From contig NZ_CP032419.1 in NCBI RefSeq assembly GCF_003595175.1, positions 2,356,001 to 2,420,000 on the forward strand: a DNA stretch of 64,000 bases, in the 5' to 3' direction. Below are positions 52,626 through 62,645 of the stretch, one piece after another. The notes under the pieces were generated by a model. The model was not told where the DNA came from. It saw only the letters and a list, made by a program, of their open reading frames with translations, and did no database searches. A program made the translations under genes and the position numbers. The stretch comes from Pseudomonas cavernae (GTDB taxonomy: Bacteria; Pseudomonadota; Gammaproteobacteria; Pseudomonadales; Pseudomonadaceae). The stretch's first letter is position 1, and each line of letters starts with the position of its first letter.

Positions 52626-52803
52626 GGACAGAACTACCTGAGAGAAGCTATGACAAAGGGGCGAGATGATAACAAAACCTTAGTCGTTCCGAGCTTTATG
52701 GCGTTTTACATGAGCCGTATTCATGTTCACGACTAAAGCCGGGCTCGTCCGCATGAGTGGTGCGCCAGTAGAATCCACCTCATTGGATGATCTGGAGCTG
52801 CCC

Positions 52804-55089
52804 ATGCTGTCGCGAGTGTTTGTTGTCTTGTCGTTGCCTTTCATGCTGCTGATGACGCCCGTGCAAGCGGTCGAAGTCTCCTACAGCCGCGACATCCAGC
52901 CGATTCTCACGCAGAAGTGCGTGGCCTGCCACGCGTGCTACGACGCGCCGTGTCAGCTCAACCTCGGCAGCGGTGAAGGGGCATCGCGCGGCGCCAGCAA
53001 GCTGCCGGTGTACGACGGCGGGCGCACCCAGGCGCAGGCCACCACCCGCCTGTATTTCGATGCCCAGGGCGAGGCAGCCTGGCGGCGCAAGGGCTTCAAT
53101 TCGGTGTTGGATGCCCAGGGCGGCCAGGCCGCGCTGATGGCGCGCATGCTGGAGCTGGGGCGCGCCAATCCGCCGGTGCCCAATGCCAAGCTGCCGGCCG
53201 ATCTGGATATCTCTATCAACCGGCAGAACCAGTGCCCGCTGCCCGGCGAGTTCGATGCCTACGCGAAGAAGTTCGCTCATGCCGGTATGCCGTTCGCCGT
53301 CGCCGGGCTCAGTGACCAGGAGTACCAGACCTTGCAGCGCTGGCTTGCCCAGGGCGCGCCGGTCGACGAGCAGGTGTTGACGCCCTCGCTGGCGGAAGCC
53401 GAGCAAATTGCTGACTGGGAGGCCCTGCTGAATGCCCCGGGCGCGCGCGAGACGTTGGTGGGGCGTTGGCTGTTTGAGCATCTGTTCCTCGCCCATCTGT
53501 ACTTCGAGGGTGGCGAGGCCGGACATTTCTTCCAGTTGGTGCGTTCGCGCACGCCGAGCGGGCAGCCGATCGACCCGATCGCCACCCGCCGGCCGAATGA
53601 GGACCCGGGCAGCCAGTTCTACTACCGCCTGTGGCCGATCCAGGGCGTGATCGTGCACAAGACCCATATCACCTATCCCTTGAGTGCTGGGAAGCTGGCG
53701 CGGGTCAAGCAGCTGTTCTTCGCCGGCGACTGGCATGCGGATAAGGTGCCGGGCTATGGCGCCCAGCGCCGCGCCAACCCCTTTGAGACCTTTGCCGCCA
53801 TTCCCGCCCAGGCGCGCTACCAGTTCATGCTGGATAACGCCGAGTACTTCGTCCGCACCTTTATCCGCGGGCCGGTTTGCCGTGGGCAGATCGCCACCGA
53901 CGTGATCCGTGACAACTTCTGGACGCTGTTCCAGGACCCGCAGCACGACCTGTACATCACCGATGCGGCCTATCGCGAGCAGGCCACACCGTTGCTGGCG
54001 ATGCCCGGGCAGTTCGATGAGATCGGCGACCTGTTCGGCCTCTGGCACGCGTATCGCGACAAGCGCAATGACTACGAGGCCTTGCGCATGGATGCCTATG
54101 CCGAGGCCCCGGCGCCCAGTTGGTCGCACATCTGGAGCGACAACGACAATGCCTTGCTGTCGATCTTCCGCCAGTTCGACAGCGCCTCGGTGCGCAAGGG
54201 CCTGGTCGGCGAGATTCCGCAGACCATCTGGTGGCTGGACTTCCCGCTGCTCGAGCGCACCTATTATCAGCTGGTGGTCAACTTCGACGTGTTCGGCAAT
54301 GTTTCCCATCAGGCGCAGACGCGGCTGTACTTCGACCTGATCCGCAACGGCGCCGAGGTCAATTTCCTCCGCCTGATGCCGGCGGATTCGCGCGTGGCGC
54401 TGCTCGGCGACTGGTACCAGAACAGCGGCAAACTGAAGATGTGGCTGGATTACCAGAGCATCGACGACGATTCCCCGACTGCCCTGCAACTGCCGGTTGA
54501 GCAACCCAAGCAGGCTTTTGCCGAAGCCCTGCTGCAGCGCTATGGCGATCTCAACGCGCGGCCCGACCCGATCAACCGCTGCCGCGCCGGTCAGTGTTAT
54601 CGGCCGAACCTGGTGCCGGCCCAGCAGGATGCCGAGCAGGCCCTCAGCCGCCTGGCCAGCCGCCCGGCCGCCGGGCTCAAGGTGATTGAGCAACTGCCGG
54701 AGGCGACACTGCTGCGGGTCGAATTGCCGGAGGGCAAGCGTGAGGTCTACAGCCTGCTGCGCAACCGCGCGCACAGCAATGTCGCGTTCATGATCGGTGA
54801 GGAGAGGCGCTATCAGCCCGGGCTGGACACCCTGACCGTTTACCCGGGCGTGCTGAGCAGCTACCCGAACTTCATGTTCAACCTCAAAGCTGCTGAGGTA
54901 CCGGGTTTTGTCGCGGCTTTGGAGCAGGCACGCGATGCTGCGGCGTTCGACAAGGTCGTCGAGCGTTGGGGCATCCGCCGTTCCAACCCGCAGTTCTGGC
55001 ATTACTTCCATGATCTCGCGGCCTATATCCATGACACCGAGCCGGTCGAAGCCGGGGTGCTGGACATGAACCGCTACCAAAACCTGTGA
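52804..55089 (+). CDS. cti: Fatty acid cis/trans isomerase
   Basis: A 761-residue periplasmic heme protein that converts cis to trans double bonds in membrane phospholipid acyl chains, rigidifying membranes under solvent or heat stress. Signal peptide LSRVFVVLSLPFMLLMTPVQ ending QA; heme c motif CVACH (residues 39-43) followed by ACYDAPCQLNLGS, diagnostic of Cti. ATG at 52804 is chosen for the signal peptide, with GGAG upstream; an ATG at 52723 is in frame but unlikely. Adjacent to metH, divergently transcribed. Confidence 0.95.
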   Translation: MLSRVFVVLSLPFMLLMTPVQAVEVSYSRDIQPILTQKCVACHACYDAPCQLNLGSGEGASRGASKLPVYDGGRTQAQATTRLYFDAQGEAAWRRKGFNSVLDAQGGQAALMARMLELGRANPPVPNAKLPADLDISINRQNQCPLPGEFDAYAKKFAHAGMPFAVAGLSDQEYQTLQRWLAQGAPVDEQVLTPSLAEAEQIADWEALLNAPGARETLVGRWLFEHLFLAHLYFEGGEAGHFFQLVRSRTPSGQPIDPIATRRPNEDPGSQFYYRLWPIQGVIVHKTHITYPLSAGKLARVKQLFFAGDWHADKVPGYGAQRRANPFETFAAIPAQARYQFMLDNAEYFVRTFIRGPVCRGQIATDVIRDNFWTLFQDPQHDLYITDAAYREQATPLLAMPGQFDEIGDLFGLWHAYRDKRNDYEALRMDAYAEAPAPSWSHIWSDNDNALLSIFRQFDSASVRKGLVGEIPQTIWWLDFPLLERTYYQLVVNFDVFGNVSHQAQTRLYFDLIRNGAEVNFLRLMPADSRVALLGDWYQNSGKLKMWLDYQSIDDDSPTALQLPVEQPKQAFAEALLQRYGDLNARPDPINRCRAGQCYRPNLVPAQQDAEQALSRLASRPAAGLKVIEQLPEATLLRVELPEGKREVYSLLRNRAHSNVAFMIGEERRYQPGLDTLTVYPGVLSSYPNFMFNLKAAEVPGFVAALEQARDAAAFDKVVERWGIRRSNPQFWHYFHDLAAYIHDTEPVEAGVLDMNRYQNL

Positions 55090-57453: not shown

Positions 57454-57723
57454 TTATTCCGGCATCTGCCAGGGCTCGAGGGCGTAGCCCTGCTGGCTCA
57501 GTTCATCGCGCGATTTTTTCAGTTCGCGAGCCAGTCGCTCGGGGTCGCTATAGATGCTGCTGGAGAGTTGAGTGCGGCCCAGCAGGCGCGTGCTGGTGCG
57601 GTCGATGACGGTCAGGCTGAGTTCGCCGGTGCCATCCAGTGCGGACCAGGCCACGCACTGGAAAGGTTGGAACGCGCGGCCTGCGATCAGAAGTGCTTCG
57701 TTGAAACGGAGCGTGGCGTTCAT
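57454..57723 (-). CDS. Small conserved hypothetical protein
   Basis: An 89-residue cytosolic-looking protein (MNATLRFNEALLIAGRAFQP; GELSLTVIDRTSTRLLGRTQ; RELKKSRDELSQQGYALEPW). The N-terminal half looks beta-rich and the C-terminal half helical and charged. No signal peptide, membrane helix or metal motif. I do not recognise the family. A plausible AGAACAACC ribosome region precedes ATG 57723. It stands alone between the GlxA-type regulator and the catalase-fold gene. Confidence 0.65.
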   Translation of the reverse strand: MNATLRFNEALLIAGRAFQPFQCVAWSALDGTGELSLTVIDRTSTRLLGRTQLSSSIYSDPERLARELKKSRDELSQQGYALEPWQMPE

Positions 57724-57885
57724 GAGGTTGTTCTCCGAATGGTACCCATTGCAATAGTCGGCCTTTAACGCTAAGCGCCGTCATGGCCTGTTATGCAAGT
57801 GGATGAGCGGAGTTGACTCGCGAGTCACATCGGGACGCAAAAAGAACTGAAATTGTCGCTTTGTCGAAAATTCCTTCGACTACCC

Positions 57886-57928
57886 GGGCTATACGCCATC
57901 CTGCACTTGCCAGGATGGCGCATAGCCC
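57886..57928. repeat. Long inverted repeat downstream of catalase-fold gene
   Basis: GGGCTATACGCCATCCTG (57886-57903) and CAGGATGGCGCATAGCCC (57911-57928) form an 18-bp stem with one mismatch and a 7-nt loop. No T tail follows, so it may be a REP-like element, an mRNA 3' stabiliser or an atypical terminator for the gene ending at 57949. Confidence 0.75.
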
Positions 57929-57948
57929 TTGGCCTGACTTGGCCGCGC

Positions 57949-59085
57949 TCAAGGATGGGCATTGCGCTCATGGCGATAGACGCTGACAGCTTCATAAACG
58001 GCCTTGCGCAGGCGGTTGATGCCGCCAATCGGCTGGTGCTCAGGCAATGAATGCCAGGGGTTGAACGACAGGTTGTCGCAGAACCGATTCTGCTCCGGCG
58101 TATCGAAGTCCTGCGCCGGGAGCTTAACGGTGGCGACGGTTTCGAAGGGCGCAATCGACTCATCCCATTCCACGCTGGGATCTTCGATCGGCATGTAATA
58201 CGCGGGATTCTGCCGTTGCACCTGCAGCGCGAAGCAGGCCGGCACGCGATCCAGTGACAGTTGCTGGTACAGCGCATTGCGCAGGAAGTTCGGTAGATCA
58301 CGGTTCTGCGCCGGCAGGTCATAGCCGGGGCAGCTGCCGCGGGCTGGAATCACTCGGTACTTGATGTTGTGCGAGCCGAGCTTGAACGGGGCGATCGAGT
58401 TGTAGGTAGTCGCCACCGGGCTTTCTGGCGCGGCGCTGAGGGTTTGCAGGGCAATGAACAGGTGGCGAACCTCCCAGCTGCGTGGGTCCCAGCTGGGGAA
58501 GAAGGCCAGGACTTTCTTGCCGCTGGCCTGGGCGGCGAAGTTGCTTTGGTATTCCGCCACGTCGCGGACGAAGAACGCCGTGTTGTTGAACATCACGAAG
58601 TCTTGCTCGCCGCTGCCGGTGGGACTGCTCATCAGCGTGGCGCCGGGCACGTCGAGCAGCTTGATGGCCATGCCGCGGGCGTCGCGCGCGCGATCGAATT
58701 GCGGGTAGGCATTGCCGTTGGACAGGCGCATCCAGGCTTGCCAGGTCTTCCCCGGCTCGCGGAACACGCCCTGACGCAACTCGGTGGGCAAGTCGGGCAG
58801 CACCTGGACTTCCGCCCGCACGCAGCCATGGGCCTTGGCATGGGCGTCACGCAGAACGCGGGTGTTGTCGCGATGCTGTTCGACGATGCGGATGGCGTCC
58901 TCGATGATGCCTTGGGTCAGGGCCGCTTCACCGGCTGGGATCTGCTCTTCGCTGGCGACCGGGCCGGAAAATTTCCAGCCATAGTACAGCGTGCCGGTTG
59001 CCCAGCCGGTCAAGCCGAGGACCAGCAGCAGAGCGATGAACTTGCCGAGCAGGCGGCCCAGCCAGAGCCAGAATTTTTTCAGCAT
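57949..59085 (-). CDS. Membrane-anchored catalase-fold heme protein
   Basis: A 378-residue catalase-superfamily protein with an N-terminal membrane helix (about residues 16-36) placing the domain in the periplasm. The distal heme His is probable in AHAKAHGCVRAEVQV (residues 81-95), the distal Asn and following motif in VMFNNTAFFVRDVAEYQ. The C-terminal FNPWHSLPEHQPIGGINRLR is shared with the small catalase-like proteins related to coral allene oxide synthase, not with classical catalases. A hydroperoxide-converting role on lipid peroxides is inferred, supported by the di-heme oxygenase-like gene 63 bp upstream. Confidence 0.85.
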   Translation of the reverse strand: MLKKFWLWLGRLLGKFIALLLVLGLTGWATGTLYYGWKFSGPVASEEQIPAGEAALTQGIIEDAIRIVEQHRDNTRVLRDAHAKAHGCVRAEVQVLPDLPTELRQGVFREPGKTWQAWMRLSNGNAYPQFDRARDARGMAIKLLDVPGATLMSSPTGSGEQDFVMFNNTAFFVRDVAEYQSNFAAQASGKKVLAFFPSWDPRSWEVRHLFIALQTLSAAPESPVATTYNSIAPFKLGSHNIKYRVIPARGSCPGYDLPAQNRDLPNFLRNALYQQLSLDRVPACFALQVQRQNPAYYMPIEDPSVEWDESIAPFETVATVKLPAQDFDTPEQNRFCDNLSFNPWHSLPEHQPIGGINRLRKAVYEAVSVYRHERNAHP

Positions 59086-59148
59086 GTAAGCATCCTTGTT
59101 GATCTTGTTGTTCCTGTTGGTCGGCGCCTGGAGTTGAGCGCCGATTGT

Positions 59149-61023
59149 TCAGCCTTGGCAATTGGGGCCTGGCGTCCAGGGTTTGGCTTGCACGGGTTTG
59201 AGCTGTGCTTCCAGCTGAGCGTTGCCCAGGGTTTTCAGGTACTCGACCAGCGCCCAGCGCTCCTCCGGCTGCAGGCCGCGGCCGATGATGCCCTGGCTGC
59301 GACAACCGTTGCGGAATTCATGGCCGCGGTTGCTATTGCCGGTAACCGCGGTCTGGAACAGAAAGCCACCGGCGAATTTTTCGGTGTGATAGCCAATATG
59401 TTTCGGGTTGTACTCATGGTTACCGACCCAGAACTGGTTGGAACGCTCGGACTGCGGCGAGAGCAACTGGAATAGGTTGGGCACCGAGCCGTTGTGCAGG
59501 AACGGTGGAGTCGCCCAGATGCCATCCAGCGGGCGGGCCTTGTAGCCGCGCTTCTCCTGCACGCCGATGGGCAGGCCGTAACCGTTCATGCGGGCGCGCT
59601 CGCTATCCGGGATGCCGGCATCCTGATAGGCCCGGTTCTCCACATACGCGGTGATGTAGGCCAGCCCTTTGGCGCTGGAGATGCTGGCGAAGTCCACGTC
59701 CGCGAGCTGGCTGCCGAACAGCCGCACGTCCAACTTGCCGAGCTGCTCCTTGCTCCAGGCCAGTTTGCGGATATCGAAGCGGTGATCGGCGATGTTGTTC
59801 GCCGCCGTCGGATCGGTGCCGACGATGCTGGTCGGCACCACACGCATGCGCCATTCGGGATCGCGTGTGGGGGCGTAGCGCTGATCTTCGGGTTTGGGCA
59901 CCGGGGCATGGCAATAGGCGCAGTTTTCCGCGAACAGCGCGCGGCCCTGGCTGGCCAGTTCCAGGTCGACTTTGCCGAACACTTGTTCCGGCCAGGTTGG
60001 TGGTTGCAGTTGCTTGAGGGTTTCTTCCAGGGTGTAGAGGTCGCGCAGGCGCACGCTGGAGGCATAGCGTTCGGCCTCCGGTATGGCCTGGCCGTGGCTG
60101 TCGAAGATCTGCAAGGTGGCGCCGACCCCCAGTGCTTCGCCGATATTGCGCGCCATCGGTTGCATGGCCGAGCCGTTCCACTGCACCCAGTCGAACTTCC
60201 AGATATCCCAGACCTGCGGATAGCTGACCGGCGCGTTGGCCACCCGGTAGTTGCGGGTATCGATGGCATCGCCGAACACGCTGTTGGCGATGCGGCCGAA
60301 GGCATCGGTGCGGCCGAAGCCTTCCTCGGTCGGGTAGAGGCCGCGGTGCCAGTCGTTGTAGGCCGTGGCGAGCAGGCGGTCGAGCACGACTTTGAAGTCG
60401 TGCCGCAGTTGCGTGCGCTCTTGCGCATAGCGTTCGCCCAGCACGCGCTTGGCGAAGCGGTTGAACTTCAGCGGGTTGTAGTAGGTGAAGGCCATGCTCA
60501 TGCCCAGCGCCTGGCCGAAGCCGCCACCACGCAGGGTGGGTACCGTCGAGGCTAGCGAATGCAGGGCGCCGCCGCCATCGATGCGGATGGCTTGTCCCTG
60601 GTAGCGCAACTCGCCGGTGTGGCAGGCCGCACAGGTGATATCCAGGTATTGCGCAGCGGTTTCGCTATCGGCATGGCGGGCAAAGCCGACCGGCAGGTTG
60701 CCGGGGTTGAGCGCCGTCGGTTGTTGCTGCGGATCGATCAGAAAGCCGAAGCGGGCGAGGTAGTCAGGGCTGGCCAGCTTGTCGCGGGAAAACGGCAGTT
60801 CGAGGGCGACGAACCAGTCGTAGTGCAGGCCTTTCACCTGCGTGCCCTGCGGGGTGTAGTAGTAGGTTTGCCGCGCCTGCGGGCTCCACTGATCGAGGTA
60901 GTGCAGCGTACTGGGCTGCTCGTAGGCCGGCAGGTTGGGGCGGGCGATGTAGTAGAGCGGTACGGCCAGCCCAACCAGAACAATGCAAAGGCACAGCAGC
61001 AGGGCGCGACGAAGGGCACGCAT
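59149..61023 (-). CDS. Di-heme c-type oxygenase-like protein (RoxA / PA2077-type fatty acid dioxygenase family)
   Basis: A 624-residue exported or membrane-anchored protein with an N-terminal hydrophobic segment (ALLLCLCIVLVGLAVPLYYI) and two heme c sites, CAACH (131-135) and CAYCH (368-372). The wide spacing, size and the segment WDIWKFDWVQWNGSAMQPMA recall rubber oxygenase RoxA and the P. aeruginosa oleate 10S-dioxygenase/diol synthase pair, rather than ordinary cytochrome c peroxidases. Likely reaction: dioxygenation of an unsaturated lipid. The substrate is unproven. ATG 61023 has AAGGAAG upstream. First gene of a two-gene unit with the catalase-fold protein. Confidence 0.82.
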   Translation of the reverse strand: MRALRRALLLCLCIVLVGLAVPLYYIARPNLPAYEQPSTLHYLDQWSPQARQTYYYTPQGTQVKGLHYDWFVALELPFSRDKLASPDYLARFGFLIDPQQQPTALNPGNLPVGFARHADSETAAQYLDITCAACHTGELRYQGQAIRIDGGGALHSLASTVPTLRGGGFGQALGMSMAFTYYNPLKFNRFAKRVLGERYAQERTQLRHDFKVVLDRLLATAYNDWHRGLYPTEEGFGRTDAFGRIANSVFGDAIDTRNYRVANAPVSYPQVWDIWKFDWVQWNGSAMQPMARNIGEALGVGATLQIFDSHGQAIPEAERYASSVRLRDLYTLEETLKQLQPPTWPEQVFGKVDLELASQGRALFAENCAYCHAPVPKPEDQRYAPTRDPEWRMRVVPTSIVGTDPTAANNIADHRFDIRKLAWSKEQLGKLDVRLFGSQLADVDFASISSAKGLAYITAYVENRAYQDAGIPDSERARMNGYGLPIGVQEKRGYKARPLDGIWATPPFLHNGSVPNLFQLLSPQSERSNQFWVGNHEYNPKHIGYHTEKFAGGFLFQTAVTGNSNRGHEFRNGCRSQGIIGRGLQPEERWALVEYLKTLGNAQLEAQLKPVQAKPWTPGPNCQG

Positions 61024-61063
61024 CGAACACTTCCTTGTGGAGTTTTAATTTTGTCGGACGTTA

Positions 61064-61086
61064 TGCCAAGCCTTCGCGGCTTGGCA
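61064..61086. promoter_or_regulatory. Perfect inverted repeat upstream of the di-heme protein gene
   Basis: TGCCAAGCC TTCGC GGCTTGGCA has perfect 9-bp arms and a 5-nt centre, 41 bp upstream of the di-heme gene in the 287-bp divergent gap. It could be an operator or an mRNA 5' hairpin. No convincing sigma-54 promoter was found in this gap. Confidence 0.45.
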
Positions 61087-61316
61087 AGCAAGGCGAAAAC
61101 AACGCTTTTGGACGCGTGCCGGGCAGTACGGCGATGAAGGCTGGGCTAGCGCGGCTCAGCGTAAAGAAGTGGCGCATAGGTTAAGCCAGGCTTTTTTCCA
61201 GCTTAGGTTATGAATAAACGATCCTATCAAGTGTCAAAATTCCGCTAAATTTTACTTTGTCCTGGCCAACATATTGTTTTTATTGACTGTCGTAAATTTG
61301 ACGCCAAGGGATGGAT

Positions 61317-62645
61317 ATGTTGAACACTACTGTCGGTACTCGTCGATTACTGATGGTCGATCCTTGCGACCACTGCCACCAACTTTTGCCCAACTTGAGC
61401 AATATCGGCTGGGATGTAGAGAGCTGTACGCTGGACGCCGCAGTCTCACGCGTTTGCGATGTGGGCCTGCTGCGTCTGCACTCCACGCATCTTGACCGAC
61501 CGGAGCACATCAAGAATTTGATTCAGCGCAGTGGCACCGAATGGATCGCCATACTCAGTCCTGATCTGCTGTCGCGCAAGGGAACCAGCGATCTGATCGG
61601 CGAATGGTTCTTCGATTTCCATACCTTGCCGTTCGATGTCGAACGTGTGCAGGTCATGCTGGGCCGAGCAGTGGGGATGGCGCGTCTGCGGGGCAGGAAG
61701 AGTCTCCTGGCGGATGCACATGGGAACGAAATTCTGGGTGAAAGCCGTCCGGCCCGTGAACTGCGAAAACTGCTGGCCAAGTTGGCGCCCACCGATGCGC
61801 CAGTGCTGATCCGCGGCGAAAGCGGTACCGGTAAAGAGATGGTTGCGCGAGCGTTGCACGTCCAGTCGCGGCGTGCCGAAAAGCCATTCGTTGCCATCAA
61901 TTGCGGCACCATTGCGGAAAATCTGATCCAGTCCGAACTGTTTGGCCACGAGAAAGGGGCCTTCACCGGCGCCCACCAGCGCAAGGTCGGGCGCATCGAG
62001 GCGGCGGACGGCGGGACTTTGTTCCTCGACGAAATTGGCGATTTGCCGCAGGAGTTGCAGGTGAACCTGCTGCGCTTTCTGCAGGAGCAACTGATCGAGC
62101 GTGTTGGCAGTTCCCTGCCGATCAAGGTGGATGTGCGCATCCTGGCGGCCACCCATGTGGATCTTGAAGAGGCCGTGCGTCACGGGAGTTTCCGTGAGGA
62201 TCTGTATTACCGACTCAATGTGCTGCAGGTCATGACCGCGCCTTTGCGCGAGCGGTCGAGTGATCTGGTGCTGCTGGCCAACCATTTCGCCCGCCTCTAC
62301 AGCCACGAGATGGGCAAGCGGCCCCGGCGTTTCAGCGAGGGGGCCCAGGTAGCGATGACTCAGCATAGTTGGCCGGGCAATGTCCGCGAGTTGGCCAACC
62401 GGGTGCGGCGTGGTCTGGTATTGGCGGAAGGTAGGCAGATCGAGGCCGCCGATCTGGGGTTGGATAATCTCGACGAAGCCTATCTGCCTCTGGGTACCCT
62501 GGAGCACTACAAGACCGAGGCCGAGTGCCAGGCGCTCCGTGATGCCTTGGCGCGGCATAGCAGCAACATGAGCGTGGCCGCCCGCATGCTGGGTATCTCC
62601 AGGCCGACTTTCTATCGCCTGTTGCACAAGCATCAATTGCGCTGA
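61317..62645 (+). CDS. Sigma-54-dependent activator with VpsR-like N-terminal domain
   Basis: A 442-residue enhancer-binding protein. The N-terminal ~120 residues ([20 protein letters not shown]) resemble the degenerate receiver-like domain of VpsR, lacking an obvious phospho-acceptor Asp pocket. The AAA+ domain has Walker A GESGTGKE, the sigma-54 contact loop GAFTGA, and Walker [11 protein letters not shown]. The C-terminal Fis-type helix-turn-helix ends [23 protein letters not shown] 61317 suits the AAGGG site; ATG 61311 is also in frame. It diverges from the di-heme/catalase-fold operon, a likely target. The signal, possibly c-di-GMP, is unproven. Confidence 0.9.

Follow-up and report, generated by a model that had tools for sequence, protein, structure and literature searches.

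A conserved gene pair for a di-heme c-type protein and a catalase-fold haem protein in Pseudomonas cavernae as a candidate periplasmic lipid-oxygenation module

Analysis of a 64,000-nucleotide stretch of the Pseudomonas cavernae genome (NZ_CP032419.1, positions 2,356,001 to 2,420,000; referred to as the window) identified a conserved pair of genes encoding a di-heme c-type protein (DH) and a catalase-fold haem protein (CAT), which we propose to act as a periplasmic lipid-oxygenation module, with DH forming a hydroperoxide that CAT would then convert or remove; we give this reading about even odds. The observations behind it are the conserved adjacency of DH and CAT, the subfamily membership, the heme-ligand residues and the company of other genes. 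The original prediction of two adjacent minus-strand genes, for a 624-residue di-heme protein of the RoxA/PA2077 type and a membrane-anchored catalase-fold protein, was confirmed in these respects, as both open reading frames are in place (Table 1), DH matched a RoxA-like domain and shares a subfamily with the orthologues of PA2077 and PA2078, and CAT carries a single hydrophobic N-terminal segment.

Searches of 149 congeneric genomes (E <= 0.001) returned matches to the CAT protein in 111 and to the DH protein in 102, where ten of the 111 possessed only catalase-fold paralogues (32–36% identity) and one of the 102 only a distant DH relative. Orthologues (E < 1e-100) of both genes were present in the same 101 genomes and of neither in the other 48, no genome having only one, and in all 101 carriers the genes were adjacent on the same strand with DH first. 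A neighbourhood survey had been suggested originally as a check on co-occurrence; in these genomes, co-occurrence (hypergeometric p of 3e-40) and adjacency in 101 of 101 carriers are far beyond chance, both without correction for genome relatedness. The inter-gene gap between match ends in these genomes ranged from -7 to 91 bp (median 32), which fits a single operon. Searching the host genome with each protein gave a single match, and the GC content by codon position (0.65/0.46/0.82 for DH; 0.63/0.45/0.81 for CAT) agrees with that of genuine genes in GC-rich DNA. Three of the 101 genomes showed one broken gene beside an intact partner (DH in G307 and G337, CAT in G353), reflecting either assembly error or decay.

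Beyond the genus, a class-wide draw of 274 genomes contained CAT relatives in 12 and DH relatives in 18, with both in five (0.8 expected by our own arithmetic) and an adjacent pair in three, the host genome included. When named genomes were scanned with a catalase-fold alignment of 12 rows, the best 80 of 584 relatives were kept. DH was directly upstream of CAT in 74 of these loci, in 72 by tblastn with a permitted gap of -100 to 500 bp and in L146 and L148 by open reading frame ends (gaps of 3 and -41); this proportion leans towards pairs because the first query row (L133), the presumed ranking reference, and seven of the 12 alignment rows were DH-paired. Two of the remaining six loci stop at a contig edge (L142, L155), and no DH was seen at L156 and L168 (both Elusimicrobia), at L165 (Methyloglobulus) or at L204 (Lujinxingiaceae). 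The pair was also found in gammaproteobacterial families other than that of the window.

The DH sequence contains the heme motifs C131xxCH135 and C368xxCH372, a MauG-type motif with H510 and a GNxNxGH568 terminus, and matched the Pfam domains PF21419 (RoxA-like; 3.6e-17) and Cytochrom_C (2.9e-8). The NCBIfam model NF040606 scored 591.8 bits (cut-off 150) over model positions 1–524 of 524. A single hydrophobic segment is present at the N-terminus of DH (Kyte-Doolittle mean of 2.65 over its best 19 residues), and beyond residue 60 neither DH nor CAT has a 19-residue mean above 0.94. Attachment of c-type hemes takes place in the periplasm, so that DH should be periplasmic. Among 43 paired DH sequences, comprising 42 of 74 kept after thinning at 88% identity and the window's own, the ligands of both hemes (C131/H135, C368/H372, H568), H510 and E296 were invariant, and position 282 was W in 38 and Y in five. 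W282 aligned with W272 of the PA2077 orthologue of P. aeruginosa PA7, corresponding to the published W251 plus 21 if our reading of the numbering holds.

Two enzymes of P. aeruginosa bear on the chemistry of DH. According to PMC4496055, PA2077 is a 10S-dioxygenase that converts oleate to 10-hydroperoxyoctadecenoic acid (10-HpOME), for which both heme His residues tested are needed, and PA2078 converts 10-HpOME to 7,10-dihydroxyoctadecenoic acid (7,10-DiHOME), remaining active with heme His mutated. The PA7 genome (L175) holds three NF040606 genes, namely the DH of its own pair and a tandem at 3319107-3322826 whose products, the PA2077 and PA2078 orthologues, scored 525.5 and 484.9 bits. By the marks given in PMC4496055, the PA2077 orthologue (634 aa) has heme His 130 and 375 and the GSHFNLPHD stretch, and the PA2078 orthologue has a 235-residue heme spacing together with EYD and ESQR. 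On sequence grounds, DH is thus a member of one subfamily, NF040606, with the orthologues of both enzymes of the oleate diol synthase pathway. The heme motifs of the PA7 PA2077 orthologue read CSMCH and CSSCH (L240 and L243 being the PA7 orthologues), and PMC4496055 gives CAGCH and CAACH.

DH might instead belong to a module oxidising another alkene, such as a polyisoprenoid, a carotenoid or a quinone side chain, with CAT handling a peroxide or carbonyl product in the manner of RoxA-type cleavage. The RoxA-like Pfam domain favours this, as does the PDB sequence search with DH, where RoxA was the sole match at E <= 1 (5.1e-9); RoxA was also by far the best match of the profile search (2.9e-25). 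We consider such a substrate quite improbable, as DH scored only 52.7, 60.6 and 60.5 bits against the RoxA, RoxB and RoxC models, far under their cut-offs of 1000, 900 and 900, PA2077 and PA2078 are much closer to DH than RoxC on a 40-row tree, and the patatin genes near the pair in some relatives point to an acyl lipid. Identity of DH to RoxC was 24% over alignable columns.

CAT matched the Pfam catalase domain PF00199 with 34.1 bits (gathering cut-off 25) and possesses R79xxH82, N167 and R360xxxY364, assigned by motif and profile alignment. H82, R360 and Y364 were invariant in 48 CAT rows (47 of 80 kept after thinning at 88% identity, plus the window's own). Its hydrophobic N-terminal segment (best 19-residue Kyte-Doolittle mean of 1.95) would anchor CAT in the periplasm. 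Judged from these residues, CAT appears to be a catalase-superfamily protein able to carry haem and has no mark specific to allene oxide synthases. A link between DH pairing and the residue before the distal His was considered and rejected, as Val occurs in four paired rows and one unpaired row with no clean split.

Some CAT relatives are parts of larger proteins. L101:8857-12123 encodes a catalase-fold domain and an animal-type haem peroxidase domain (PF03098, 3.4e-93) in a single frame of 1088 aa, possibly a further oxylipin-type design. LodA is fused behind the catalase-fold domain in L103:2-2923, L137:7496-10513 and L138:9485-11584, where by our reading the distal His is missing; L103 also adjoins a homologue of the fatty acid cis/trans isomerase gene cti. 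The CAT relative in L105 is beside a weakly DyP-like gene.

The 40-row tree placed all 20 rows of CAT-paired DH in a clade of their own (support 100/99). A 64-row quick tree with phylum-wide additions, carrying SH-aLRT support only, omitted L276, L278, L301, RoxC and repeat extractions of L143, L145, L133, L134 and L146, and retained the short L286 (175 aa) and L136 (372 aa). On this tree the CAT label of 27 rows required three changes, and the starred branches force three. One falls on the main clade, one on L284, which shares a fork of six rows with PA2077 and PA2078 (support 93, or 97 when a further row is included), and one on L296, which is placed among unpaired relatives. Three label changes may equal one gain and two losses, as the tool warns; we read L284 and L296 as separate gains or transfers because each is a single row amid unpaired ones. 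In the CAT tree, CAT of L284 grouped on a long branch with other DH-paired CAT (90/89), and that of L296, together with the unresolved CAT of L292, was outside them. Catalase-fold genes have therefore probably become neighbours of NF040606 genes on more than one occasion, one of these involving a relative of the known fatty-acid dioxygenase.

This recurrence bears on whether the two genes are adjacent simply through having been inherited together as an old pair, with no reaction in common, an explanation that we regard as very unlikely indeed. CAT and DH distances correlated with r = 0.98 over 40 paired loci (0.91 over 34 taken as Pseudomonadaceae), as would be expected for any co-inherited genes; the occurrence of catalase-fold genes next to NF040606 genes in three regions of the tree, the reversed gene order of the pair in L292, and the absence of any genome among the 149 with an orthologue of one gene only argue against it.

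NF040606 genes that lack CAT may have another partner. The 28 places fetched from the phylum included nine with CAT (three in the window's own family), two with an adjacent cytochrome P450 gene and one with a P450 gene 1.4 kb away, the P450 count being a lower bound for which only homologues of the four P450s from class and genus loci were sought. Class and genus searches gave 13 loci without CAT, all of them NF040606 members and four of them with an adjacent P450 gene, so that P450 genes were near seven of 32 NF040606 loci without CAT (six adjacent, one at 1.4 kb). The neighbour counts exclude over-cut-off places in the window's genus (second copy G356:C43 included) and G193:C149, a 3.7-kb contig; of such places outside the genus, G453:C1:7711916 and G500:C11 are not included, and G086 is L107. 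The P450 label needed six changes for six rows on the 64-row tree, four of them forced. All four P450s that were read carry ETT in the I-helix, which we take to be the ordinary P450 pattern, and an oxygen-using monooxygenase role is thus also possible for them. Homologous P450 genes were observed beside NF040606 genes of several families (L111, L112, L113, L136, L274, L288), and NF040606 with P450 is possibly a second module type.

Further genes accompany the 14 pairs outside Pseudomonadaceae (L133, L134, L141, L143-L146, L148, L149, L284, L285, L287, L292 and L296; L300 repeats L145). A gluconolactonase-like SGL gene (PF08450) was upstream in ten, a patatin-like phospholipase gene was nearby in six, and a tetratricopeptide repeat (TPR) gene was upstream in five. 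In L143, L144, L145 and L287 the patatin gene shares the strand of the pair and is upstream of it, and in L146 and L148 it is on the opposite strand and downstream. Calls by tblastn only were the SGL genes of L141, L144, L149 and L287 and the patatin gene of L144. Five patatin proteins passed the Pfam cut-off and showed GGGIRSATF, an S-G-G elbow and DGG, presumably the patatin oxyanion and dyad motifs. In L143, L145 and L149 (Pseudoalteromonas, Thalassotalea, Colwellia) a GGDEF (diguanylate cyclase) gene was convergent downstream of CAT, which possibly links the locus to biofilm signalling.

We infer the lipid substrate, the order of steps and the CAT reaction from these observations. DH and CAT would form one unit at the periplasmic face of the inner membrane, where DH would bind O2 at its N-terminal heme and turn an unsaturated acyl chain, present as free fatty acid or set free from phospholipid, into a hydroperoxide; its subfamily member PA2077 does this with oleate. 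The CAT haem would then take the hydroperoxide and rearrange, cleave or reduce it. In some relatives the patatin-like phospholipase may supply the fatty acid and the SGL-family hydrolase may act on a product. The two-gene oxylipin pathway originally proposed thus gains from subfamily kinship, from the conserved and recurrent pairing, from the patatin and SGL company in some relatives, from the P450 neighbours of some members without CAT and from the CAT relative fused to an animal-type haem peroxidase, and it loses the likeness to coral allene oxide synthase and one active-site segment, as detailed below. A more speculative extension, which we put forward as tentative and rather doubtful, is a periplasmic c-type-heme counterpart of the eukaryotic cyclooxygenase and lipoxygenase cascades, running from patatin through an NF040606 dioxygenase to CAT or P450 interchangeably and on to the SGL hydrolase, that would yield new lipid signals.

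Several observations weigh against lipid oxygenation by the pair. NF040606 membership does not fix the chemistry, as PA2078 belongs to it and is active with its heme His mutated, and the subfamily is broad, with the distant L224, L230 and L231 passing the cut-off (207, 195 and 182 bits); these three, an outgroup outside the 32 loci counted above, have no CAT, P450, patatin or SGL gene of the studied types nearby. DH is 32% identical to the PA2077 orthologue and 30% to the PA2078 orthologue over alignable columns, and its clade is separate from both. Homologues of the patatin and SGL kinds described were absent by tblastn from the window, the other 73 named loci and 15 genus loci, as were those of the TPR and P450 kinds. 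The active-site residues of the RoxA/PA2077 type anticipated in DH were partly recovered: the heme ligands and the equivalent of RoxA W302 (W282) are present, and the segment equivalent to RoxA F317 (NRKFDVG in the PA2077 orthologue, QVFDLG in the PA2078 orthologue; numbering assumed) has no counterpart in DH. RoxA activity is reported to depend on F301 and F317, and RoxA is said to have no acid-base Glu. The invariant E296 of DH, present in the PA2077 orthologue and lost in the PA2078 orthologue by alignment, is a possible acid-base catalyst. RoxA was not recovered by structure either: Foldseek with an AlphaFold2 model of DH that contained no hemes (mean predicted local distance difference test score of 82.3, predicted template modelling score of 0.84) returned nothing from the PDB at E <= 0.001, and its 24 matches at E <= 10 (best 0.2) were mostly respiratory complex III chains. 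For CAT, a specific likeness to coral allene oxide synthase (cAOS) could not be upheld. By profile, true catalases are its best matches, the 12-row catalase-fold profile finding catalases 6rjr (2.5e-14) and 1a4e (5.7e-12) and the mini-catalase 3e4w (1.1e-9) ahead of cAOS 1u5u (1.1e-6). The residue before the distal His was Ala in 43 of 48 rows and Val in five, never Thr, the residue given as Thr66 of cAOS in PMC5617202, and N167 was kept in 43 of the 48 rows (Ser in four, Asp in one).

Some of these points would suit a peroxide-defence pair, where DH is a cytochrome c peroxidase (CCP) reducing H2O2 or lipid hydroperoxides with respiratory-chain electrons, CAT a periplasmic catalase or organic peroxidase, and patatin an enzyme that excises damaged lipids. 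The NCBI name of the family, di-heme-cytochrome C peroxidase, favours this explanation, as do the closeness of CAT to true catalases and the Trp or Tyr at 282 and invariant Glu at 296, which we take to be the positions where bacterial CCPs and MauG carry the bridging Trp and catalytic Glu. LodA, to which some CAT relatives are fused, belongs to an amino-acid oxidase family that is reported to release H2O2; these fusions point to plain peroxide handling, and the relative beside the weakly DyP-like gene agrees with it. We nevertheless judge peroxide defence somewhat unlikely, as DH has the length and anatomy of the 70-kDa RoxA/FadCcp type and not of the 35–40 kDa CCPs, the two NF040606 members whose reactions are known to us make or convert fatty-acid hydroperoxides, and P450 companions do not fit a simple detoxification pair. 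The proposed lipid-oxygenation module is given no more than about even odds because the F317 equivalent is absent, E296 also suits a peroxidase, and Foldseek with a heme-free model missed RoxA.

The surroundings of the pair (Table 1) are less constant. The cti gene was inside the fetched stretch in the window, in four of 15 genus loci (L116, L121, L123, L125) and in four of 80 named loci; as it accompanies the pair in only some Pseudomonas, it is assigned to the surroundings, outside the core unit. The sigma-54-dependent regulator gene is beside the pair in part of the genus. No sigma-70-like sites were found in 57600-61400, where three terminator-like sites showed no excess over shuffles. Sigma-54-like sites across the window were below expectation (34 observed, 42 expected), so that this evidence gives no link between the regulator and the pair. 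In one clade of Pseudomonas, DH is immediately preceded by an open reading frame that looks conserved (cluster c2, seven loci); it was dropped as a gene candidate, as four sequences mostly have no usual start and by eye resemble the antisense of another gene; three of its proteins scanned gave no Pfam match. A search of the host genome for lipoxygenase (PF00305) gave no match, and control genomes were equally silent, so that absence of the gene is not established.

Table 1. Position of the DH/CAT pair and neighbouring features in the window
Feature	Position	Strand	Details
cti, fatty acid cis/trans isomerase, lipid-modifying neighbour	52723..55089	+	PF06934, 2e-292
Small open reading frame between CAT and AraC/DJ-1 regulator	57454-57723	-	89 aa
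CAT, catalase-fold haem protein with membrane anchor; would convert or reduce the hydroperoxide	57949..59085	-	378 aa
Intergenic gap DH/CAT	59086..59148	-	63 bp
DH, di-heme c protein of NF040606 with membrane anchor; putative dioxygenase of lipids or fatty acids	59149..61023	-	624 aa
Sigma-54-dependent regulator gene, divergent from pair	61311..62645	+	VpsR and Sigma54_activat domains
metH, near pair			recognised from its sequence alone
nfuA and AraC/DJ-1 regulator, near pair			window surroundings

No description of the DH/CAT pair was found in the open-access PMC literature by title or abstract start, subscription papers lying outside this coverage. Both enzyme families are known; the pairing, the patatin and SGL company and the recurrence appear undescribed within the open-access literature. 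The conserved pair suggests an undescribed bacterial lipid-oxidising pathway, in which a further NF040606 clade goes together with a catalase-fold partner and, in some cases, with a phospholipase-like gene. Oxylipin products of PA2077 and PA2078 act on motility and biofilm (PMC5155153) and in cell-to-cell communication (PMC6377657). If the proposal is true, lipid oxygenation would be common among environmental Gammaproteobacteria and the family name would misdirect many annotations.

Among the closest known systems is the oleate diol synthase operon of P. aeruginosa, comprising the 10S-dioxygenase PA2077 and the 7,10-diol synthase PA2078 and termed FadCcp (PMC4496055), which like the pair is a two-gene unit and whose enzymes share the NF040606 subfamily with DH. 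Heme CxxCH spacing is 237 residues in DH, 245 in PA2077 and 235 in PA2078, and FadCcp and DH share the MauG-type HNGSVP motif with the axial His 58 residues further on. The Trp equivalent to RoxA W302 is present in DH (at the position taken here) and in PA2077 and is Ser in PA2078. FadCcp is described as periplasmic, as DH would be. The second enzyme is of the catalase fold in the pair and a second di-heme protein in the FadCcp operon, and PA7 carries both systems. The rubber dioxygenases RoxA, RoxB and RoxC resemble DH as di-heme c proteins of ~70 kDa with the HNGSVP motif and a terminal GNxNxGH, although the heme spacing of RoxA is 199 residues. According to PMC6311187, production of RoxA-type proteins does not succeed in E. 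coli or in recombinant P. putida. The mini-catalase 3e4w, presumably mycobacterial MAP-2744c, has a short catalase fold like CAT, and we know of no membrane anchor or di-heme partner for it. Coral AOS-lipoxygenase and hydroperoxide lyase-lipoxygenase proteins (PDB 1u5u; PMC5617202) follow a similar logic of a dioxygenase with a short catalase-fold haem protein, and coral AOS and CAT have the distal His, the Asn and the proximal RxxxY in common. Coral AOS is fused to its lipoxygenase, whereas CAT is a separate protein with no lipoxygenase beside it. Fungal dioxygenase-cytochrome P450 fusions and cyclooxygenase-P450 routes (PMC13049297) likewise combine a haem dioxygenase with a haem enzyme converting the hydroperoxide, for which the counterpart here would be NF040606 with CAT or P450, one CAT relative being fused to PF03098. 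The dioxygenase fold of those systems is unrelated to that of the c-type di-heme DH, which would be periplasmic. The parallel with the coral and fungal systems is, taken as an analogy, one of logic and not of descent.

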